From: Myxococcales bacterium
GTDB taxonomy: Bacteria > Myxococcota_A > Polyangia > Polyangiales > JAFGIB01
DNA: 43,304 bases
Direction of reading: 5' to 3'
Assembly: GCA_028817905.1 (NCBI GenBank)
Contig: JAPPOR010000984.1
Span: 1 to 43,304, forward strand
The first letter of the stretch is position 1; every line of letters begins with the position of its first letter. The notes under the pieces are model-generated. The model was given only the letters and a program-made list of their open reading frames with translations. It did not search any database and was not told the origin of the DNA. The translations under genes were made by a program, and so were the position numbers. Shown here in pieces: positions 16,420 to 43,304 of this stretch.

Positions 16420-18570
16420 CTATTCGCGACTTGGAGGGCGTGGTAGCGCGCGGGGCGGGGTCGTAGGACGATCTTCCGATGGCGAGGTAGCGGCGGGCGT
16501 GCCTCCTGTGTGGGTCCCGATCCAGACTTGCCGACCCCTCGTAAGAGCCAGGCGTGTGCCCGACGGCGATAGTGCCACGTCTGCGACCTCCCCTTGGGCA
16601 TCCGGAGGGCGGACCAGTTCAACCCGTCCGTTGCGAATGATCGCGATGCCTGCGGGCGTCGGCAGTGCATAGCTTCCCTTCGTGGTGATGGCGATCGGTT
16701 CCTTGCTACGGGGGATGGGCCTGCCGCCTGTCAGGGGTTGAGCGGCGTCGCTTGTGCTTTCGCCCGAGGAATCGAGCGGCAAGGTCAGGAGTTCGGCACC
16801 GCGCCCAAGCAGCAGTCCGGAGTCGCTGTAGTCCAGTACAACAAACCCGCCTGACTGCTGCCGCACATGCGAAGGAAGTTTGTCGCACGGATATCCGCTC
16901 GGCACTTGCGCAGGCATGATCAGCGGCCTGGCCACGTCCGGTCCCGCCACGATGCCGTTGATGATCTGAGTGGCCCTAACGATGCGCGCGCGGTAGCCCT
17001 GGCAGCTACGAAAGACCTCTGCCACGGCCAGGCGCCCCTTCGGGTCGGTCATCGCCAGGCTGGACCGGATTCCTGCTGGCGCCACCTCTTTGGTGCTCAA
17101 GATGTAGATTTGATTTGGGGTGCCGCGCAGAAGCAGACGGCCATCGTCGAGAAACGCCACACGTGGGCGATGCACCGGTGTGGTTCGTGCTGGTGAGAGC
17201 GTCGGACCCTTGCTGAACTGAAACGCCACGGATGTTGGGGCGGCGGCGATCGCCTCCTCGGCACGTTTGCGGTCCGCCGGCGTGGGTCGCAAACGTGGGT
17301 CCTCGAGGGCCTGCCGATGTTCTAGGGCATCCAGGATGCGCTCCCGGGCGATGGCCGTCGCAACCAGTATGCTGTGGGCGCGGGCTACTGCCTGGGAGGG
17401 GGGGCACGGCAGTCCCATCTGTCCGGAGAGTGCGATTTCGCTGGTGCCAGCGCTGCGGCACAGTCGCTTGTGAAGGGCAAGCAACGCGGTAGCTTTCCTG
17501 CCTGCTTCCGGCGCCTTGGTTGTCGCCGCCTCGTCCGCCAGTTGTACGAGGGTACGCTCTGGCTCACCGACTTGCACCGCCAGGCCAGAGGGGCGACTCA
17601 GCCATTGGAGCGGGATTCGCGAGACCAACTGATTCTCGGGGGAAGCATCTGCTGCGTCTCCTGTCCCATTGAGCTGGAGCATCGCTTCGATGTCGGGATG
17701 GTCATCCCCGTCGATCAGTTTGCCCTCGAATCGCAAAGCCAGTGCCGGTGCATCCTGCCCTGGTGGGGCGTGAAGCTCGATGTGCTCCAGCTGCCTAGGG
17801 GACTTTTCCGCGGTCAAGAGCCAATGACTCCGGACAAGGTGCTGGGCGCCGCCGGTCGGTTCGCCATGACTGGCGGTATCCAGCTTCCGCGGGCAGCTCA
17901 GCGTGACGGTCGCGTGCAAATGAGCCGTGGAAAGCGTGTCGAGCCCGCCTGAGACGACTGTGCACTGGCGCGCTGCCGCCACCAGCTCCAGAATCGGCGT
18001 CAGTGGCAGCAGGCCGGGGCGACTGGTTCGGACCGTGCGTTCCACCGCGAGGCGGCCTGAGCGGTCGCTGACTAAGGCCAGAATGTCGAGCTCGTCAGGA
18101 CCGGTGGACAAGGTGGCGTGAATGTGCCCGCCCTTCTTTTCCAGGGTACCTGCTGCCAGCTCCACCCGGCTGGGTGCGTCGACGAAGCGCTGCCCCCGCC
18201 TGAGCCCGGCGTCGCCACTGCCCTCCGGCGGCCGCTCGCCTTGTTCGCTCGATGTGTTCTCTTTCTGGAGGGCGTCTGGGTGCTTGAAGGGTACTGCTGG
18301 TCCCTCGTTGCAGTCGCAGCCTGCGGTCGCCAGCACAACCGCAGCTAGGGTCCACCGGAACTGAAGCCCGCTCGCGCGGAACCGTGAGTTCGGCCTTGGC
18401 CCAGATATCCTGCCAACTCGCGAGCGGAGCGGGCAGGGGTTCGGCTTTACAGGGACTTCGGCGAACGACTGAATACTCGTTGTAATCGCGAGCGAGGACA
18501 AAGCGCTGTGGAGTCGAAGACCAAGCGAGGAGTCGCGACGTCGGTGAGCTATCCGGGTTAGTTCAGCCAC
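16420..18570 (-). CDS. Large lipoprotein with C-terminal beta-propeller-like repeats, function unknown
   Basis: I do not recognise this family. The longest frame is 716 residues from GTG 18570, overlapping the end of the rhomboid-like gene by 13 bases. A lipoprotein signal is visible only at residues 71-85 (FRWTLAAVVLATAGC, Cys85), so the true start may lie downstream (for example TTG 18501); no ATG is close. The middle is Ala/Arg-rich. From about residue 470, repeated strands such as VAFLDDGRLLLRG and DVALSPSGTRLALTRGRQ look like WD40/TolB-type blades. The C-terminus is Pro/Ser/Thr-rich. An outer-membrane or periplasmic scaffold is likely. It sits between the rhomboid-like gene and rnr in the same direction. 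Confidence 0.7.
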   Translation of the reverse strand: MAELTRIAHRRRDSSLGLRLHSALSSLAITTSIQSFAEVPVKPNPCPLRSRVGRISGPRPNSRFRASGLQFRWTLAAVVLATAGCDCNEGPAVPFKHPDALQKENTSSEQGERPPEGSGDAGLRRGQRFVDAPSRVELAAGTLEKKGGHIHATLSTGPDELDILALVSDRSGRLAVERTVRTSRPGLLPLTPILELVAAARQCTVVSGGLDTLSTAHLHATVTLSCPRKLDTASHGEPTGGAQHLVRSHWLLTAEKSPRQLEHIELHAPPGQDAPALALRFEGKLIDGDDHPDIEAMLQLNGTGDAADASPENQLVSRIPLQWLSRPSGLAVQVGEPERTLVQLADEAATTKAPEAGRKATALLALHKRLCRSAGTSEIALSGQMGLPCPPSQAVARAHSILVATAIARERILDALEHRQALEDPRLRPTPADRKRAEEAIAAAPTSVAFQFSKGPTLSPARTTPVHRPRVAFLDDGRLLLRGTPNQIYILSTKEVAPAGIRSSLAMTDPKGRLAVAEVFRSCQGYRARIVRATQIINGIVAGPDVARPLIMPAQVPSGYPCDKLPSHVRQQSGGFVVLDYSDSGLLLGRGAELLTLPLDSSGESTSDAAQPLTGGRPIPRSKEPIAITTKGSYALPTPAGIAIIRNGRVELVRPPDAQGEVADVALSPSGTRLALTRGRQVWIGTHTGGTPAATSPSEDRPTTPPRALPRPPSRE

Positions 18571-19256
18571 GTTGGGGGCTCATCGTCCTCGGACATGCCG
18601 CCTTTGATGACACGCAGGCCCCGATCCTTCGAACGAGGGCGTTTGGGCGTGCGTGCCGGGCTTCGGGGCCGCCGCAGCCAACGGATGAAGCCAACTCCGG
18701 CCGCCATCGCGCCCGCGTCGGCTAGGAAATGCGTCAAGTTCCGGTCGAACAGGAAGTTCAGGACGACAAGGGCGATCAGCCCGAACATGAGTTGACGGCC
18801 TGTCAGGCTGAATGCACCGAATAGTGACAGTTCCTGGTCCCGTCGCAGATAGGTTGTCGCCATGATCGCCCCCAGCCAGAGTGAGCCCGACCCGGCATAC
18901 GCTGGCAGCGGCTGGATCACGAAGCCAGCGAGGTAGGCGACGGCTCCGGCGCCAAGCGTGCACACGCCGCACAGTTGGGCGGTTCGTCTTGCTCCGAAGC
19001 CGACTTCGAAGGGCGAGACAACCCACCACAGGATCAACAAACCGAATAGGAACCAGAGGGGTGGCGAGTGACCTTGGACGATCACGTAGGTGGCTACCTG
19101 CCAGACGCCCGGGCCACCCGGTTGCAGTGCGAGCCACGGGGCAAGGTCGACGCCCTGCAAACGTAGGATCAGTTCGATCACGTAGGCGGCGAAGAGCGTG
19201 ATGATGAGCTTGCGAACAAAGCCGGTCAGGCGGGGTAGTCTCAGCTGGCCCTGCAC
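18558..19256 (-). CDS. Rhomboid-like intramembrane protein
   Basis: The 232-residue protein has about six hydrophobic segments between residues 10 and 195, then an Arg/Lys-rich cytoplasmic tail. AGSG at 121-124 resembles the GxSG serine motif of rhomboid proteases (Ser123), and His176 in LTHFLADAGAMAAG matches the histidine helix with its small-residue face. The segment WFLFGLLILWWVVSPFE..FG resembles rhomboid segment 2, but the usual HxxxN is absent. Either a divergent active protease or a derlin-like pseudoprotease fits. GTG 19256 follows GAGGAG and lies six bases after the preceding lipoprotein stop, so the two are co-transcribed. Confidence 0.65.
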   Translation of the reverse strand: MQGQLRLPRLTGFVRKLIITLFAAYVIELILRLQGVDLAPWLALQPGGPGVWQVATYVIVQGHSPPLWFLFGLLILWWVVSPFEVGFGARRTAQLCGVCTLGAGAVAYLAGFVIQPLPAYAGSGSLWLGAIMATTYLRRDQELSLFGAFSLTGRQLMFGLIALVVLNFLFDRNLTHFLADAGAMAAGVGFIRWLRRPRSPARTPKRPRSKDRGLRVIKGGMSEDDEPPTWLN

Positions 19257-26023: not shown

Positions 26024-26404
26024 CTTGTCCTTCTCTCGCCGGCGCCGCCGCGCGTCGAAAGCCGGCCATCGAGCTCAGCTTCCAGACGCTGGCTCATCGT
26101 TTTTCCCGGAAGACCATGAAACGCCGCCGCGCATGTCGGTCACAAGGGGCGCAGGTGGGTCTTTCCGCGCCCTTGCGTTCCGGATCCGGGCGATGGCGCG
26201 CCGCGCGTGGTCCATGCGATAGGGGCATAGCTCAGCCGACCGCTATCGGCAATCCGGATCGGAAACCCAACGTGCGCTCCTTTTCCGATAGGTTTCGGAA
26301 GTGGCTAGGCCGGGGTCGTTCCTGACTTCGACGCCTCGCTTGCCCTTCGAGTCCACGGCGCCTCCGTCGCCCTAGAAAGTACGGGGAGTATTCCTGCCGG
26401 GCGT

Positions 26405-26420
26405 CGAAAGCCCTGTGAAG
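26405..26420. repeat. Direct-repeat motif upstream of sucA, copy A
   Basis: CGAAAGCCCTGTGAAG is identical to copy B 149 bases away. Read on the minus strand the similarity continues on both sides for roughly 26-28 bases, and a GGGC/GCCC stem is retained although the loops differ in length. This suggests a conserved regulatory or structured element. Confidence 0.6.
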
Positions 26421-26553
26421 CCGAAACCCTGAAGGGTCGATGCCTACCTGATCGGATGTAGCCTGGACCGACTCCGGGGCCGACAGCGGCGCAGTCCGGC
26501 TTTTCGGCGCTGGCGGGGGGGGGTCCGGCGCTGGTTGCGATCGGGGAGCGGGC

Positions 26554-29488: not shown

Positions 29489-29881
29489 ATGGAGCGCATG
29501 TTCTTACTGCTTTCGGGGATCTCGGGCTTTCTGGCGGTAGCACTGGGAGCCTTTGGTGCCCACGGGCTCAAGTCGAAGCTGGCGGGGCTTCCTGAAGCGG
29601 TCCAGCGGCTCGGCTGGTGGGAGACGGCCGCGCACTACCACCTGGTACACGCGCTTTCACTTGGCCTCGTCGGGGCGCTTGCCACCCGTCTTTCGCCGGC
29701 CGCACCGACGTTGGTTTCCGTAGCCGGCTACGGGTTCTTGGCAGGTACGCTGCTTTTCAGCGGCAGTCTGTACGTGATGACTCTCACAAACATACGGGTC
29801 CTTGGGGCGGTGACCCCCCTGGGCGGCCTATGTCTGTTGGCTGGCTGGGGTGCGCTCGCGCTCGCCGCATGGAAGCTGTAG
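29489..29881 (+). CDS. DUF423 family membrane protein
   Basis: The 130-residue protein has four hydrophobic segments and the family hallmark VALGAFGAHGLK near the N-terminus, then WETAAHYHLVHALSLG. Members such as E. coli YgdD are inner-membrane proteins of unknown function. ATG 29489 and ATG 29498 are both possible; GGAG sits just before the second. It is divergent from the prolyl oligopeptidase gene across a 75-base promoter region. Its 3' end is followed by copy 1 of the dispersed repeat. Confidence 0.85.
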   Translation: MERMFLLLSGISGFLAVALGAFGAHGLKSKLAGLPEAVQRLGWWETAAHYHLVHALSLGLVGALATRLSPAAPTLVSVAGYGFLAGTLLFSGSLYVMTLTNIRVLGAVTPLGGLCLLAGWGALALAAWKL

Positions 29882-29952
29882 GTAGCGGGGCTCCGTCCGA
29901 GGCCAACGAGGCATGGGACCCCCGGAGCGCGCCAGCGCGACCTAGCGACCTA

Positions 29953-30034
29953 GCGACCTTGTCCAAGCGCATCGAATCAAGGCAACGCGATCAAACTTGA
30001 CGCAAACGCTCGCGAAACGCTGACTCAAGGTCGC
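29953..30034. repeat. Dispersed 82-bp inverted-repeat element, copy 1
   Basis: The element begins GCGACCTTG and ends CAAGGTCGC, a perfect 9-bp terminal inverted repeat. Its reverse complement matches copy 2 with about 12 differences over 83 positions by eye, including a 26-base identical core. It sits between the convergent DUF423 and DUF4340 genes; its last base is part of the DUF4340 stop codon. Extra CTAGCGAC units flank the left end. Confidence 0.85.
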
Positions 30035-31074
30035 TAGGGGTGCCCAGGGATGACCTGCTTCGGATGCACGACATTGACCGGAGGTTTGGCCGAGGCCGAG
30101 GCGCCCTCCTTGGGCGGCGGATCCTTCTTGAAGTCGTCCGGACCCTGGGACAGCCTGTCGCCCATGAAGCTCGAGATCTGGTATAGAACCTCGTCGCCTT
30201 CCTTTCGCAGATAGTAGTTGGAGCCGACTTTCGCGCCGACACGCAGCAGCACCTGGCTGGGTCCGGCGTCATTGCTCAACTCCAACAGGACCTTGGACTT
30301 GCCAGCATCGTCGACGCCAGCGCTCGCCAACGTGACGTCCGGCTTGGCGAAGTCCACGGCACGCAGGTGCACCGCAGTACCGACCATCGACTTGACCTTT
30401 CCGGGGTCAAACTCGGGGATCGCCTTTTCTCCCTCGGCTTGCTTGAATGCATCGCCGTCCTTTTCGAAACGAAGGGTGCCCTTTTCGTTCTCCACTGTCA
30501 CGGCGACCACGTCGTCCTGCTCCAGGTCGGTGATCGTTCGGTCACGCCACTCCTTCACTGCTTTGTCGAAAGCAAAGCGGATGGAGCCCTTGACGGCTGC
30601 GACCTTGTCGTTGCCCTCCATCCGGACCATCGTGTTGCCCGAGCGGTACGCTCCGATCCACAAGTCCGCCAGCACCTTGTCGCCCTGCTTGGCAACGACG
30701 TGGATACCCTTGTCCTGGGTGACTTCCAGCAACTCGTGGTTTTCCTTGCGGGTGGCCGCGACCGCGGTGACCTCGAGACCCGCGAGCTTGCCGAGGGCGG
30801 TCTCTAGGGCGGTCGTCGCGGCTTTTGCCTCTACTGGCGCGGAGACTTTCCAGCCCTTACCCTCTTCCGAACTCGGATCCTTGACGAGGGTTACAGCCTC
30901 CTTCTCCGGCGGCTTCACTTCCAGTCGGTCGATGGAGTCCTTTTCCATCTTCGGCAGCTCGACACTGATATCGGCTCCGCGGCTGTCTTCAGCCTCCCGC
31001 GCATTGAGCTGAACGAGGGTCATTCCTGCGAGAACGACCAACACTCCCAGCGCGATCATCAGTTTCTTCGACAT
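30034..31074 (-). CDS. DUF4340 domain protein of an ABC/GldG-type operon
   Basis: The 346-residue protein has one N-terminal membrane anchor (about 4-24) and a long extracytoplasmic part made of repeated mixed strands (KEAVTLVKDP, GTLRFEKDGDAF, QVLLRVGAKVGSNYYLRK), fitting DUF4340. The C-terminus is Pro/Lys-rich. Proteins of this type are typically encoded next to GldG-like genes. GGGAG lies just before ATG 31074, 15 bases after the GldG-like stop. It probably works with the ABC complex at the membrane; the substrate is unknown. Its stop codon lies at the edge of the dispersed repeat. Confidence 0.75.
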   Translation of the reverse strand: MSKKLMIALGVLVVLAGMTLVQLNAREAEDSRGADISVELPKMEKDSIDRLEVKPPEKEAVTLVKDPSSEEGKGWKVSAPVEAKAATTALETALGKLAGLEVTAVAATRKENHELLEVTQDKGIHVVAKQGDKVLADLWIGAYRSGNTMVRMEGNDKVAAVKGSIRFAFDKAVKEWRDRTITDLEQDDVVAVTVENEKGTLRFEKDGDAFKQAEGEKAIPEFDPGKVKSMVGTAVHLRAVDFAKPDVTLASAGVDDAGKSKVLLELSNDAGPSQVLLRVGAKVGSNYYLRKEGDEVLYQISSFMGDRLSQGPDDFKKDPPPKEGASASAKPPVNVVHPKQVIPGHP

Positions 31075-34897: not shown

Positions 34898-35635
34898 TTA
34901 CTGAATGTACGTCCAGTCTTTCGACGGGCGAAATTCGAGATGAACGTGGTTCTGGTGGGCGGCATCGTGATGTGGCGTGAGCACTACCTGGAAGAGCCCG
35001 GCCGTCACGGCTTCGCAGACGACCCCTCGCAGCACGCGACCCGCCCAGGCTTCGTCGTGGCGCATGGGGCAGGGCTCGCCGCCGCGCTGACGCTCCTCCC
35101 AGTCGGTCAGAACGTCCAGGATGGCGCCGTTGCGCATGTGCAGGCGGGCCAGGTCGATAGCGAGCGCGTGGGCATGCCCACTCACCTTCCCGCTACCCCG
35201 GATGCGCGCTCCCGGCCGATACACCGAATAGTGCTCCATGCCGGCCACACCTGCGCGGCGCAAGGTGCCCGACCAGTGGAGAATGCGCAGCGCCAGCCGG
35301 CAATCTAGAATCGAATGCACCCGGCTTCTGTTTCGGGGCGCTACCCAGACTCCGCCGATGGCGCTGGCTAGCCGGATCGGCATCTTCACGCCCGCGGCCC
35401 GGCGCCGGTCGACCAGCTCGAACGTGACGCCGCCGCGCCACAACCGGTCGTAGCAGGCGCGCGCCTCGGGGGGCAGGTCCAGCCCCTCGGCTGCCGGGTT
35501 CGGTGCGACGTGTGGAGCAGGCAGGGCGGCGCGCCCGTGCCCGTGGGCAGATCGTCGCGCCGACGGCTCTGCGTTCGCAGTAGCGCACGCGGTCAGCAGC
35601 GCCGCAACGCTGGCAAGTCGGGACAAACGCACCAT
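34898..35635 (-). CDS. Extensin-like domain lipoprotein
   Basis: From ATG 35635 the protein has 245 residues with a lipoprotein signal ending LLTAC (Cys17); GTG 35644 is an alternative start. The C-terminal half matches the bacterial extensin-like family: CRLALRILHW, then SGHAHALAIDLARL and HHDAAHQNHVHLEFRP. The H...D and HxH pattern suggests a metal site as in LAS-type peptidases that cut peptidoglycan or peptides. Activity and substrate are not shown. A copy of the dispersed repeat lies 53 bases upstream. Confidence 0.75.
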   Translation of the reverse strand: MVRLSRLASVAALLTACATANAEPSARRSAHGHGRAALPAPHVAPNPAAEGLDLPPEARACYDRLWRGGVTFELVDRRRAAGVKMPIRLASAIGGVWVAPRNRSRVHSILDCRLALRILHWSGTLRRAGVAGMEHYSVYRPGARIRGSGKVSGHAHALAIDLARLHMRNGAILDVLTDWEERQRGGEPCPMRHDEAWAGRVLRGVVCEAVTAGLFQVVLTPHHDAAHQNHVHLEFRPSKDWTYIQ

Positions 35636-35688
35636 CTGGACCACATGCCCACAGCCGTTGGCTTCGTCAAATAAGTGGAGCCCCGTTG

Positions 35689-35771
35689 GCGACCTTGAGG
35701 CAGTGTTTCGTGGGCGCTTGCGTCAAGTTTGATCGCGTTGCCTCGAATGGGATGCGTCGGGACAAGGTCGC
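35689..35771. repeat. Dispersed 83-bp inverted-repeat element, copy 2
   Basis: This begins GCGACCTTG and ends CAAGGTCGC, as in copy 1 but in the opposite orientation. The centre GCGTCAAGTTTGATCGC is itself nearly palindromic, so the element can fold both at its ends and in its middle. It lies 59 bases downstream of the DyP peroxidase gene and upstream of the extensin-like gene. Confidence 0.85.
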
Positions 35772-35830
35772 TAGGTCGCACGCCTCGTTAGGCAGGCGCG
35801 CCAAAATGGTGCTGGGCGAAGCCCCGTTGG

Positions 35831-37435
35831 CTATGTTGGATCGACCATCCCCTCGCCGATCAAGCGCAGCGCCGTGATGCTCGGCACAAAGAAATACTCT
35901 CCGCCGCGGGTCTCGACGAAGCGTGGCATGCCTCCACACAGGAACGGGGGCCTACCGCCGCCGGGTTCGGCCTCAATCGTCATGCGACCATCGCCCTTGC
36001 CTTCTGGGGTAGTCCCATGGTTTCCGATGATCGGGTCCCTGTCATTTCCGAGCCGGAAGTCGTTCCCGTAGTTCACCCATTGCTGCTGCACGAACTCGAA
36101 CTGACGACGAATGTTGGCCCCCAACGCCATGAAGACGATCCCGTGCTCGCCGGTATCGTCTTGGGGGTCTACGACCGAGCCGTATGGTAGCCCCCTGCGC
36201 AAGATCCGGCGTCGATTGGTCAGCGCCCCACGGGTATCGAAGGCGAACGCCTCGCCGAACTCGAGCGACCCGCGTGGGTTGGTGCGCCGAATATGAGCGC
36301 CCACCGGGCAACCCGCGCCTGGCAGGTCCTTGGAGTAGTCGAACGCGACGAACTTGGCGTTCAGTTGGGCGAACGCAGCCTTCGCCTCTTCGCGGGCCGG
36401 GCCCTTGGGAGTCTGTTGGATCTTCAGCTTGGCAGCCATCCATTGCTGCGCGAACGCTTCGGCTTCGGCTTCCGTTGGGAACGTCGTTACCGGAGCACCG
36501 TTGCGCCATCGACCCGCGAATTTTGCCGCCAGCGCTTCCTTGCCACCTGGGTACTCCGTGCCGACCGCGTCGAGGTACCGGTTGAAGGAGCCGACATTCT
36601 GATGGAGCTTTCGATACACCATGTAGGTGCCGTTGCGGCCCAGCAGAGGCGGCATGGGCGCTTCGGGGAATTCCTGCGCCTCGTCCTTGTAGCCGAGCAG
36701 GAACTCGCCGGTTTCCAGGGGCTCCCAGCCCGCCCGCGTGGTGGCGTCTCGGCGCGTGACCTTGCCCCCCCCAAGGACGTTTTCGGGGTGTTCCCCGGTG
36801 CCCTTGAAGTATGGATTGCCGATCCCGTCGGTGTACCCAAAGTGCTCCTTGGGGGTCGGCTTGCCATCGATCTCGATCGCCGAAGCTGCCTGGTAGGGCA
36901 TGTCGTTTCGCCCTTCCGGATCGCGATGTCCCGTGAGGCAGCGAACGCCTGCTCGGTAGCGCCCGGTGATATCCGTAACGAAAGCGTAGGCTGTCTCGAT
37001 CGCGTCCCGGGAAACCCCATTTATCGTGATCAGTACGTGGATGCGGTGCGGCTTCCGCCATACCGGGTCCCAACGCTCGGGACCGCTTGGGCCATCATCG
37101 CCGAGGATTGCGCCGCGCCCTCGCATGCCCGTGGCGAACTCTGGCGAGAACGTGAGCAGAGATGCTTGAGGCAGCCCGAGCATGCGCAGACCCGCGAAGG
37201 TCAGGGCGACGTTCAACGTGGACTCCGGACGCTCTTCGGTGCTCCCGCGACCCCACGGCGCTGAGGTGGTGACACGCTCGGCAAGCGTGGCGATGAACCC
37301 TCTTCCTGCCTGGCCATCCGTAATCTCGAACAGCACGTAGCGCGCGTGCGAGTAGTCGTATCGACTGTAGGCCTTGACGATATTGCCTTGAATATCGTGA
37401 AGGTCGAGCGTCACAGGGCTTCCGGGTGTGCTCAT
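35831..37435 (-). CDS. DyP-type heme peroxidase
   Basis: ATG 37435 overlaps the stop of the upstream gene by four bases (ATGA), giving 534 residues; the open frame runs on to 37990, but that part is a shadow. FGYTDG at 199-204 is the DyP GxxDG motif with catalytic Asp203, His381 in VGAHIRRTNPR is the proximal heme ligand, and NRRRILRRG near 407 supplies the distal Arg. The long form resembles large DyPs. No signal peptide was seen, so it is probably cytoplasmic. It should oxidise dyes, phenolics or other donors with hydrogen peroxide; the natural substrate is unknown. Confidence 0.92.
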   Translation of the reverse strand: MSTPGSPVTLDLHDIQGNIVKAYSRYDYSHARYVLFEITDGQAGRGFIATLAERVTTSAPWGRGSTEERPESTLNVALTFAGLRMLGLPQASLLTFSPEFATGMRGRGAILGDDGPSGPERWDPVWRKPHRIHVLITINGVSRDAIETAYAFVTDITGRYRAGVRCLTGHRDPEGRNDMPYQAASAIEIDGKPTPKEHFGYTDGIGNPYFKGTGEHPENVLGGGKVTRRDATTRAGWEPLETGEFLLGYKDEAQEFPEAPMPPLLGRNGTYMVYRKLHQNVGSFNRYLDAVGTEYPGGKEALAAKFAGRWRNGAPVTTFPTEAEAEAFAQQWMAAKLKIQQTPKGPAREEAKAAFAQLNAKFVAFDYSKDLPGAGCPVGAHIRRTNPRGSLEFGEAFAFDTRGALTNRRRILRRGLPYGSVVDPQDDTGEHGIVFMALGANIRRQFEFVQQQWVNYGNDFRLGNDRDPIIGNHGTTPEGKGDGRMTIEAEPGGGRPPFLCGGMPRFVETRGGEYFFVPSITALRLIGEGMVDPT

Positions 37436-39793: not shown

Positions 39794-41110
39794 ATGGCCC
39801 CGCTTTTTCGCTTTCAGCTGTTGTCGCGCGTTCCGCGTGTGAGGCACGCCATCGGCGCGGTCGCCCGGTACTTCCCGTGGACGCCCCTGGGTGGGACGGC
39901 CGCCCTTTCCGCGGGCCTGGCAGTTCACCAGTTGGCTTATGGGCAGTTGGACTTCGTCTGGCTGGTGTTGGGACTCTCCTGTTTGGCCCTGTGTGTCCTG
40001 GCCGCACTGTGGGTTGTGCCCGTCGCGTTGTGGCTGCGTTTTCGGGACGATGGCGAGCAGACCCGCGAACACCTGCACCTCGAGACTGGCGTTCCTCGCG
40101 ATACCGGCTATCGCCTTCCTCGCTTGTCGTTGTTTCCGCTCGTGCAGGTCGAAGCCCGTTGGCTGTCGCCGCCGCTCGCAGACCTGTCGCTGCAATCGCT
40201 GGATGGGCAGCGCTCCGAGCATGCGGTCGCCTCCGATCGCGGCAAATATCAGCGCATAGAGCGGCGTTTGACGGTGCAGGACCCGTTCGGCTTGGCCCGC
40301 ATCCATATCGATCGTCCCGCGGCGCGTCCGGTGGACATGTTGCCCCGCCTTGGAGGCCTGAGCCGTCTGCCCAGCCTGTCATCGTTGGCCGCTGGTGACG
40401 AGCTGCCGCACCCCATGGGCCTCGCGGACGGCGACCGGCTTGAGCTTTCACCCTACGTTCCGGGGGATCCAGCGCGCTTCATTCACTGGAAGATCTTTGC
40501 GCGTACACGCAGTCTGAACGTGCGGCGTCCAGAGCGCGCGTTGTCGGTCGCGCGCCGCATGGCTGCGTTCTTTGTGCCGGGCGAGGATGACGATGCGACG
40601 GCTGCCCTGTGCCGCTTGGCGCTCGTTCGTGGCATGCTAGGAGAACAGTGGCGCTTTGGCACCAGCGCGCATCCAGAGGGCACCAGCGATCCCGCGGAAG
40701 CGATCGATCGCCTGCTGCGGACGTCGGGGGAGCGCGCGCGCGCCGCCGAGGGCCTTGCAGCATTCTTCAAAGAGGTCGAGCGAGGCGGGCCGGCTGCCCT
40801 TCTGGTCTTCGTGCCGCCGCGGGCGGGGCCGTGGCTTGCCCAGGTAGTCGCGGCCGCGGCCGCCCGCCGTTTGCGCGTGCTGATCGCCGTGGACACCCTC
40901 GCCGAAGCCGCGCCGCCTGGGCGTTTCGTTCGCCTGGCTCGCTTTTGGCTGCGCCCGCCTCGGGTCCGCGACACCACCCGCGAGGACCTCGCGACGGTGG
41001 TTGAAACGCTCCGACGGGCGGGTTGCGACGTAATGGTCTTCGATCGGCAGCGGGGCTCGATCCTGGCCGAGGGGCGCGGAGGGGCAAGTCCACGCGGGGT
41101 GGCGGCGTGA
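39794..41110 (+). CDS. DUF58 domain protein
   Basis: The 438-residue protein has two membrane segments (about 33-50 and 54-76) and then a soluble part. The family hallmark YVPGDPARFIHWKIFARTR begins at Tyr221, followed by LNVRRPE; a von Willebrand A-like Rossmann region follows. DUF58 proteins usually lie beside a MoxR-type ATPase and a transglutaminase-like membrane protein. The transglutaminase partner is present, with a four-base overlap (GTGA), but no MoxR gene is visible in the window. Proposed roles in assembly or maturation of cell-surface proteins are inference. Confidence 0.85.
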   Translation: MAPLFRFQLLSRVPRVRHAIGAVARYFPWTPLGGTAALSAGLAVHQLAYGQLDFVWLVLGLSCLALCVLAALWVVPVALWLRFRDDGEQTREHLHLETGVPRDTGYRLPRLSLFPLVQVEARWLSPPLADLSLQSLDGQRSEHAVASDRGKYQRIERRLTVQDPFGLARIHIDRPAARPVDMLPRLGGLSRLPSLSSLAAGDELPHPMGLADGDRLELSPYVPGDPARFIHWKIFARTRSLNVRRPERALSVARRMAAFFVPGEDDDATAALCRLALVRGMLGEQWRFGTSAHPEGTSDPAEAIDRLLRTSGERARAAEGLAAFFKEVERGGPAALLVFVPPRAGPWLAQVVAAAAARRLRVLIAVDTLAEAAPPGRFVRLARFWLRPPRVRDTTREDLATVVETLRRAGCDVMVFDRQRGSILAEGRGGASPRGVAA

Positions 41111-43266
41111 CGCGCTCAGAGTTGTGGATCCGGCTGTTGCGGGCACTCATCTATGCCGTCGCGGCCTATGTGGGCGTCTACCCGCTGGCGGTGCCCATGG
41201 TAGCCGCCTCAGCGGCTGCCGCCGCCGCCACCGGTGCCTTGCTAGGCTCGAGTGGGTTCGCCCATCAGCTCCGTCCTCGGGCGGTGGCATCCTTGCTAGG
41301 GCTTGGTCTGCTCGCAGGAGCGGGCCTCAGGACGCTGCTTGCGGGCAGTGAATTGGTTGCGACGGCCCTGGGGCCACTGTCCTTGCTACGGGTCTCTCAG
41401 GCGGCACAGGCGGTCCTGTGGGCGCTGTCCGTGGGATTTGGTCTGCGGGCTCTATCCGCTCGCTACGCGTTCTTGCGTGTCCTGGAGATCGGACTGGTGG
41501 GGGCTGCGTGCGCCCAGCCAGTCATTGCCCACCGGGGCGGCGCCATCAACCGTCCGTTCGAGCTCGCAGACGCGATCTTGGCGGTTGGTGGAGATCCCAC
41601 CGTGGCGTTTCTGGCGATCGGAACGGCGGCCACTGCCCTGGTCGTGACCTTGCTTCTGGGTGAGCGGCGCCCTCTGCGAGCGTTGCTGCAGGTTGCGCTC
41701 GTTGCGGGCCTGCTGGCGTTACTCGCCCGGGGTGCTCCGATGCCCGAGCCGAGCGCGGCGGGCTTGCTTTCCCCCGGCAAGGGCAAGCACGACGGCAGCA
41801 AGCGCAAGGGCAAGGGAGGTCAGGGCCAGTCTGACGGGGAGCGCCGCCGCGATGAGGAGCTGGAGTTCCGCGACAACTACGACAATAGCGGTAAGCAGGT
41901 GCCGCTCGCGGTTGTACTGCTCCACGATGACTATTCGCCTCCGAGCGGGATGTATTACTTTCGCCAGACCGCGTTCAGCCAATTCAACGGGCGTCGTCTT
42001 GTGATGGCGACCCGGGACGACGCGGATCGCGATGTGGCGCCGACCTTCGTCAGCGATCGCGTTGAGGTCGATGGGGTGGCGGGGCGCTCGGTGGACCGTC
42101 GGCCGCTCGCGACGACCGTGGCGCTGCTGGCCGATCACACACGGCCGTTTGCGCTCGAATCCCTGGTCGCGCTCGAACCCGCTCCGAACCACGATCCGGG
42201 TCGTTTTCGGCGAGTCTATCGCACCGAGTCCGCCGTCCTGGTCAGCGACTTTCGGGATTTGCTGTCGTTGTCGACCCGTGATCCCACATGGGAAGCGCCG
42301 CTCACGGAGCACTACTTGGGCCTGCCCGACGATGCGCGGTATGGCGAACTCGCCGACAAGATTATCGAGACACTGCCGTCCGGTCTGCGGTCGATGCCGG
42401 TGGCGCGGGCGTTGTCGGTGAGTCGCTACTTGAGTGAAGAGGGCATCTATAGCCTGCGAAGCAAGCACGCGGATGCCGAGGATCCCACTGCGGATTTCTT
42501 GTTTGGTGACCTGACCGGGTACTGCGTGCATTTTGCGCACGCCGCTGTGTACCTCATGCGCGCCATGGGCGTGCCAGCTCGGGTTGGCGCCGGCTATGTG
42601 ATAGAGGAGGCCGCGCGTCAGGGGGGCTCGGCGCTGCTGCTGACCGGCGCCAACGCGCACGCTTGGCCCGAGATCTACATCGACGGCGTCGGCTGGGTGG
42701 TTGCAGACGTTTCGCCGGAGCAGGCGCTCGACCCGCCGCCGCCGCCGCCTGACCCCGACTTGCAGCGCCTGCTGGGCGAGATGGCCCGCGGTCTGCGGCC
42801 GTTGCCGGCGACCGCAGACAACGTCTTGCAGCCCGTCGTGCACGTTGCGCGCGAGCTGTACGCGGCGCTGAGGGCCGGGGTTGTCTACGGGGTCCCCATC
42901 GTCTTGTTGATGTTCTATCTCGTGAAGCTGTGGCGCCGGCTGGCGCCGCGCTTCGGTCGTGAGCGAGCCCTGCCGCGGCTAGCCTACCGCGCCCAGTTGG
43001 ACCGACTGTCCGAGCTGTCGCTCCGGCGTAGCTACGGCGAATCGCGCGAGGCGTTTGCTGCGCGGGTTGCCGGGCGCTTCCCTGGGTTTTCGAAGCTGAC
43101 GGCGGTGCACGTGGCTGCCGCCTTTCGTCCCGAGGGCCAGGCTGTGGCCAGGAACGAACTGCGTCTTCTCGAGCGGGCAGCGCGGTCGGAGCTGTCGCGG
43201 GCCGCACCAAGTTGGCGAAGGGCGCTCGGATGGCTCACCCCCTGGTCGTTCTTGCTGTCCCGCTAA
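41107..43266 (+). CDS. Transglutaminase-like membrane protein (DUF3488/TgpA type)
   Basis: GTG 41107 overlaps the DUF58 stop and gives 719 residues. Six or so membrane segments fill residues 1-215, followed by a Lys/Gly-rich linker and an extracytoplasmic transglutaminase-like domain. The triad is Cys473 (GYCVHFAHA), His518 (NAHAWPEIY) and Asp534 (VVADVSPEQ). A Pro-rich stretch and a further membrane segment (about 594-612) precede a cytoplasmic tail. This matches TgpA-like proteins, which are likely proteases or transferases acting on surface proteins or peptidoglycan. Confidence 0.88.
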   Translation: MTRSELWIRLLRALIYAVAAYVGVYPLAVPMVAASAAAAAATGALLGSSGFAHQLRPRAVASLLGLGLLAGAGLRTLLAGSELVATALGPLSLLRVSQAAQAVLWALSVGFGLRALSARYAFLRVLEIGLVGAACAQPVIAHRGGAINRPFELADAILAVGGDPTVAFLAIGTAATALVVTLLLGERRPLRALLQVALVAGLLALLARGAPMPEPSAAGLLSPGKGKHDGSKRKGKGGQGQSDGERRRDEELEFRDNYDNSGKQVPLAVVLLHDDYSPPSGMYYFRQTAFSQFNGRRLVMATRDDADRDVAPTFVSDRVEVDGVAGRSVDRRPLATTVALLADHTRPFALESLVALEPAPNHDPGRFRRVYRTESAVLVSDFRDLLSLSTRDPTWEAPLTEHYLGLPDDARYGELADKIIETLPSGLRSMPVARALSVSRYLSEEGIYSLRSKHADAEDPTADFLFGDLTGYCVHFAHAAVYLMRAMGVPARVGAGYVIEEAARQGGSALLLTGANAHAWPEIYIDGVGWVVADVSPEQALDPPPPPPDPDLQRLLGEMARGLRPLPATADNVLQPVVHVARELYAALRAGVVYGVPIVLLMFYLVKLWRRLAPRFGRERALPRLAYRAQLDRLSELSLRRSYGESREAFAARVAGRFPGFSKLTAVHVAAAFRPEGQAVARNELRLLERAARSELSRAAPSWRRALGWLTPWSFLLSR

Positions 43267-43304
43267 CGACCTTGAGTCGGCGTTCTGTGGGCGTTTGCGT
43301 CAAG
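43267..43304. repeat. Dispersed inverted-repeat element, copy 3 (cut by window end)
   Basis: CGACCTTGAG begins one base after the transglutaminase TAA stop, and the 38 visible bases match copies 1 and 2 with about five differences from copy 1. Orientation is as copy 2. The right half lies outside the window. Confidence 0.75.

Follow-up and report, generated by a model that had tools for sequence, protein, structure and literature searches.

A sequence of 82 to 83 bp with inverted repeats at its ends, found three times in the DNA of a Myxococcales bacterium, raises the question of what kind of repeat it is, how it has spread and why its copies lie at the ends of genes. The window, that is, the whole stretch of 43,304 nucleotides that was analysed, comprises all of one contig (JAPPOR010000984.1 of assembly GCA_028817905.1, termed C1039 here). 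The repeat is best explained, with a probability of roughly 0.75, as a non-autonomous element of the REP/MITE class, which inserts at CTAG and in doing so rebuilds amber stop codons. Its unit of 82-83 bp with one long fold is referred to as the core, and a second sequence frequently attached on the right is designated as module B. The relevant features of the window are as follows.

29950-30037, minus strand: copy 1 of the core element, from CTAG to CTAG (from the sequence, aligned with 79 other copies)
29882-29949, minus strand: shortened B module on the right end of copy 1 (from the sequence; the B consensus occurs at at least 46 places in the genome)
junction of copy 1 with this B module, minus strand: 8-bp duplication, CTAGCGAC CTAGCGAC (from the sequence)
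30034-30036, minus strand: TAG stop of gene 30034-31074; copy 1 starts with the final G of this codon
29879-29881, plus strand: TAG stop codon of the convergent gene 29489-29881, immediately adjoining the outer end of the B module (from the sequence and the gene call)
35675-35688, plus strand: remnant of a B-module right end, GTGGAGCCCCGTTG, before copy 2 (from the sequence; the same junction recurs before other nested copies)
35689-35774, plus strand: core element, copy 2, together with the CTAG on its right (from the sequence)
35775-35830, plus strand: B-like, internally deleted stretch after copy 2, ending in CGAAGCCCCGTTGG (from the sequence; boundary approximate)
43263-43304, plus strand: copy 3, cut by the contig end and beginning with CTAACGACCTTG (from the sequence)
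43264-43266, plus strand: TAA stop codon of gene 41107-43266, which shares bases with the left end of copy 3

The two full copies named in the original prediction, at 29953-30034 (minus strand) and 35689-35771 (plus strand), were both confirmed in the sequence and lie in opposite orientation. The ends GCGACCTTG and CAAGGTCGC and the identical 26-base run TTGCGTCAAGTTTGATCGCGTTGCCT, which had been ascribed to all three copies, are indeed common to these two, but copy 3 begins with ACGACCTTG without the first G of the others, carries part of the run only, and has no right end because the contig stops inside it. Likewise, the length of 82-83 bp holds for the core, but the inverted repeat, put at 9 bp, extends to the CTAG on both sides and thus measures 12 bp. 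The placement of the copies outside genes and just past a gene end is correct as to the 3' location, but copies 1 and 3 overlap stop codons, and copy 2, situated 60 bp past the 3' end of gene 35831-37414, is also separated by 45 bp from where gene 34898-35644 starts. On the left side of copy 2, TTG is found in place of CTA, since this copy follows a B-module end. No mobilising enzyme is encoded in the window, in line with the earlier statement.

The existence of further copies, proposed as a check on the family, was readily established. A pattern search of the fragmented assembly (11,144,318 bases in 1110 contigs) disclosed 286 exact CTARCGACCTTG ends (142 + 144), compared with 7 (2 + 5) for the reversed control, and about 0.85 of the ends in readable copies match CTARCGACCTTG exactly, which together suggest an estimate of about 150-170 assembled core copies. 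When copy 2 was used as a BLAST query, 46 matches, all with E <= 1e-8, were obtained in the best 40 of 207 candidate regions. Many core copies are located within 150 bp of contig ends, which indicates that the true copy number is probably higher and that the element is itself a cause of assembly breaks. The counts given here rest on the search outputs together with 79 genome stretches and the window, and the copies read constitute a non-random sample, consisting of those most similar to the query and those on the lowest-numbered contigs. Within this sample, 97 core matches were read, whose flanks are unrelated, and the median pairwise identity among core copies is 89%. One exact 82-bp core sequence occurs at five places, two of which share an upstream end of another repeat (family D, described below); such identical copies imply that the family was still spreading in recent times. 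A candidate 3.1-kb element on contig C40 was ruled out after it proved to consist of separate copies. A CRISPR array was likewise rejected, as the copies are scattered over the genome and what separates tandem cores is another repeat, namely B.

Structurally, the family follows the layout CTAG-CGACCTTG...CAAGGTCG-CTAG, whose left-hand columns CGACCTTG and right-hand columns CAAGGTCG hardly vary among the aligned copies; the ends are also written as the bounding pattern CTAGCGACCTTG. A divergent variant (L127) has kept both the ends and the centre TTTGAGTCAAGTTTG. The left tetranucleotide of the un-nested copies (n=62) is CTAG in 49, TTAG in 6, CTAA in 4, CCAG in 2 and CGAG in 1, while the right one is CTAG in 73 of 77; this difference in variability has p=0.008, or p=0.08 once the right ends followed by B are set aside. 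Neither GTAG nor ATAG precedes any of the copies read. The presence of CTAG (or TA) at both ends is consistent with the target-site duplication that the original prediction had proposed to look for, and falls short of proof. Module B, of up to 100 bp, is present on the right in 40 of the 78 copies with room to show it. The module is frequently incomplete; full modules terminate in GGAGCCCCGCTAR, and where another core comes next, as happens in some cases, direct repeats of 182 bp arise. An integron attC site was also considered on account of size and folding. Such sites carry RYYYAAC/GTTRRRY boxes, and the candidate was dropped as the ends of the core are devoid of them.

The position of the copies relative to genes is the most distinctive property of the family. 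With genes called by a simple codon-score caller made for this analysis, no full core copy was found inside a gene among the copies read. In 38 copies, the last base of the upstream stop codon coincides with the first base of the element, and in 10 more the stop codon ends 4 or 7 bp ahead of it, so that the 3'-end bias is sharper than had been guessed, being exactly at stop codons and oriented. Among the un-nested copies, 47 of 58 have a left end that is fused to the upstream stop codon or no more than 7 bp away from it, against 45 of 181 (25%) non-repeat extragenic CTAGs that lie at stops (p ~4e-19), and in the fused copies the first G of the element usually completes TAG. With regard to orientation, left ends are fused to stops in 53 of 94 cases versus 8 of 120 for right ends. 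This difference is in part attributed to the frequent occupation of the right side by B; where neither a B-like sequence nor TAGG flanks the right end (15 copies), fusion involves 10 left ends and 3 right ends. A palindromic target combined with neutrality alone gives no explanation of this bias. As regards stop usage in general, TAG accounts for about half of the stops (128 of 255) in 80 stretches of the same genome even away from the core element, a share that is unusual for a genome of about 63% G+C; C-preceded TAG makes up 60 of these 255 stops, some of them adjoining other repeats.

Comparison with relatives was subsequently used to judge whether the fused stops are native. A lone 26-bp match aside, the 317 other genomes of the class yielded no core element, and pattern searches of GTDB contigs and viral contigs, as well as searches of phage and plasmid records, returned none either. 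The lone match, in a genome from another family of the class (G122, contig C136:223073-223098, L153), is 96% identical over 26 bp to the left interior of the core and is probably due to chance. SecF of the genome under study ends with ...RRFFRRA-TAG-CGACCTTG. In six genomes belonging to three other genera of the family, SecF ends at the equivalent residue in five and one residue later in one, five of the genomes use TGA as its stop and one uses TAG, and the element follows in none. Ten further fused genes, compared in one search with a query built of C-terminal pieces, each have at least one orthologue with the same end residue, and none of these is followed by the element. As the orthologues end at the same residue, the insertions lie at native gene ends and the proteins are not truncated. 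The orthologue stops of the ten genes are mixed, and CTAG is found in 3 of 17 same-length cases; that most orthologous stops are not CTAG counts against the best explanation.

On this explanation, a hairpin-forming sequence of about 82 bp, with or without B on its right-hand side, would be moved by an enzyme supplied in trans. Insertion would take place at CTAG, or sometimes at TTAG or CTAA, leaving a CTAG-type tetranucleotide on both sides. Where the CTAG contains an amber stop, insertion would rebuild the same stop, so that the upstream protein would remain unchanged and such sites would be harmless and would accumulate. Moreover, each insertion would create two CTAG junctions, by which further copies and other CTAG-ended repeats could join end to end, and the core-B-core arrays would result from such joining. 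The element presumably transposes, and CTAG would be the target of insertion rather than a sequence brought by the element.

As to the class of the enzyme, we lean slightly towards one of the single-strand Y1 (HUH) type, acting in REP or TIR fashion on the coding strand, over a DDE transposase, and the Y1 option is put forward tentatively, at a little under even odds. A Y1 enzyme takes the left tetranucleotide as its target and the right one as part of the element (PMC6006769). Here, the left CTAG would be the target, the right CTAG would belong to the element, and the exposed coding strand would be preferred; the greater variability of the left tetranucleotide and the pointing of the left end to the gene fit a Y1 enzyme, although this is a leaning rather than a finding. 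Fusion to stop codons is also known from GTAG REPs, which often supply a TAG stop to flanking ORFs (PMC3733652). REP-type Y1 genes were found in 75 of 116 genomes of the order, that of the present organism included. Its single Y1_Tnp gene (contig C60, L131, about 1223-1724), which also matches REP_Tyr_transpos and has the motif NHIH, is a relic with a frameshift, and it breaks off immediately ahead of an E-type repeat (see below) at the contig end, not beside a core element. The search for a cognate transposase that had been recommended therefore yielded none except this broken gene without a link to the core family. No RAYT/Y1 gene flanked by the core repeat was encountered in the assembly, whose fragmentation makes such an absence less than certain, and no unpaired core ends stand beside a transposase in the stretches read. 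Against a Y1 enzyme, too, the Y1/RAYT genes inspected in relatives are accompanied by other inverted repeats or by none, with neither CTAG palindromes nor core ends, and the tag is CTAG, not GTAG.

Like the GTAG REPs and REPINs mobilised by RAYT (PMC3733652, PMC2817692, PMC6006769), the core is extragenic, palindromic and of high copy number, forms mosaic and tandem arrangements, resides at 3' ends and has termini that supply a TAG stop. Unlike them, it bears CTAG at both ends instead of GTAG (or GTGG) at one, it consists of one 82-bp hairpin as opposed to a REP of 20-40 bp, and no RAYT gene with a core repeat was found in the fragmented assembly; the conserved ends on a long single hairpin and the strong orientation further set it apart. 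The effect on stop codons is thus known in kind, whereas the CTAG at both ends, the long hairpin, the orientation and the lack of a linked RAYT differ. Certain REP-like Y1 genes have terminal inverted repeats on their flanks, and these constitute repeat families (PMC3733652). These TIRYT repeats, or 'TIRtrons' (PMC3733652), resemble the core as terminal-inverted-repeat families unrelated to GTAG REPs whose spread is presumed to depend on REP-type Y1 enzymes, but no Y1 gene is flanked by the core, and the GGGGWSAS of most described TIRs does not appear in the core ends.

Within the same explanation, a MITE moved by an IS630/Tc1-type DDE transposase, with the TA in CTAG duplicated and the partner lost or unassembled, is possible but doubtful. 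Its terminal repeats are symmetric and resemble protein-binding sites, TA stands at both junctions, and the size is typical of MITEs, in all of which the core parallels IS630/Tc1-type MITEs such as RUP and Correia/NEMIS. On the other hand, DDE_3, DDE_Tnp_1_4 and DDE_Tnp_1 gave no match in the 11.1-Mb assembly, from which, fragmented as it is, insertion sequences may have been lost. The present host yielded no transposase of the IS630 family. The end sequence is different as well. Symmetric ends would predict random orientation, yet left ends dominate at stops and are fused to them in an oriented manner, and the two junctions differ in variability. The core is short, non-coding, dispersed and bounded by terminal inverted repeats, as MITEs are, but no autonomous transposon with the same ends was recognised in the assembly or in the stretches read. 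The assignment to a REP/MITE-like family made in the original prediction is nevertheless upheld by the many copies, unrelated flanks, terminal inverted repeats, non-coding nature and strong 3'-end bias; the core is filed as a variant of that class and not as a GTAG REP, since neither the GTAG tag nor a linked gene was found when tested for.

It is unlikely that the core is a selected RNA element of 3' ends, such as a terminator or an mRNA-stabilising hairpin, whose mobility is old. The position exactly after the stop and the sense orientation would suit such a role, as would the stable fold, which as RNA reaches -40.7 kcal/mol (z -4.9). However, the core fold beats shuffles on both strands, as RNA and as DNA, and the antisense strand has the same z-score. 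Only 3 pairs with two-sided changes were seen in the core stems compared with 2.3 in shuffles, and without covariation the hairpin is not demonstrably selected as RNA. Relatives lack the element after the same genes, and the identical copies imply recent spread. The Rfam family covariance models gave no match to the core, which disposes of the concern that it might be a fragment of a known RNA gene. The proposal that the element brings its own TAG, inserting at gene ends with any stop and replacing the original, draws on the orthologue stops, which outside the three CTAG cases are TGA, TAA or TAG after other bases, and on the TGA of SecF in most relatives, but is judged improbable, because C-preceded TAG is already common away from the copies, partly beside other repeats, and because no copy follows GTAG or ATAG.

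For the preferred reading, that of a REP/MITE-class element inserting at CTAG, several implications may be drawn. The exact, oriented fusion to native stops makes the insertion rule readable from sequence and testable, and it illustrates a way for a selfish repeat to become abundant while leaving genes intact. The element may have an effect on which stop codons are used, and it is a source of breaks in the assembly of such genomes.

The common CTAG junctions also suggest that palindromic repeats from many phyla belong to a broader set, one that may so far be undescribed. In this genome, about a quarter of the extragenic sequence that was read consists of short repeats. It also harbours D (CTAGCCCGGATNATTCATGA...) and E (CTAGCCCGCATCCATCACCA...), two families of larger palindromes that adjoin each other and the core at CTAG. 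An exact search for the D end CTAGCCCGGATNATTCATGA retrieved at least 107 contigs of named genomes (L195-L301), whose hosts include Planctomycetota, Myxococcota, Nitrospira, several classes of Proteobacteria and others. For 67 of 117 D ends, a second, inverted end lies no more than 400 bp away, and the flank beyond it is CTAG in 44 of the 67. The interiors of D differ between genomes, with length modes of about 168 and 183 bp; some copies consist of the palindrome alone, about 33 bp long. No transposase ORF was seen between or beside D ends, RAYT-like proteins gave no match to D-family loci, and the D end did not occur as text in the relevant open-access papers, which is weak evidence of novelty. 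A bolder proposal, which we regard as rather speculative, is that CTAG-tagged palindromes, including the core and the cross-phylum CTAGCCCGGATNATTCATGA family, form, next to the GTAG and CGTC repeats, a third super-family that has yet to be described and whose enzyme places elements in the coding strand at amber stops; were this true, gene ends would be preferred, self-renewing landing sites. Family E is represented by the stretches L120, L126, L041 and L042, and the centre GGGAATACTCGCTGTATTTTC is common to E and D. Two copies of D lie in the window.

18425-18561: copy of family D
26303-26431: copy of family D

The former adjoins the TAA stop of gene 18558-19256.
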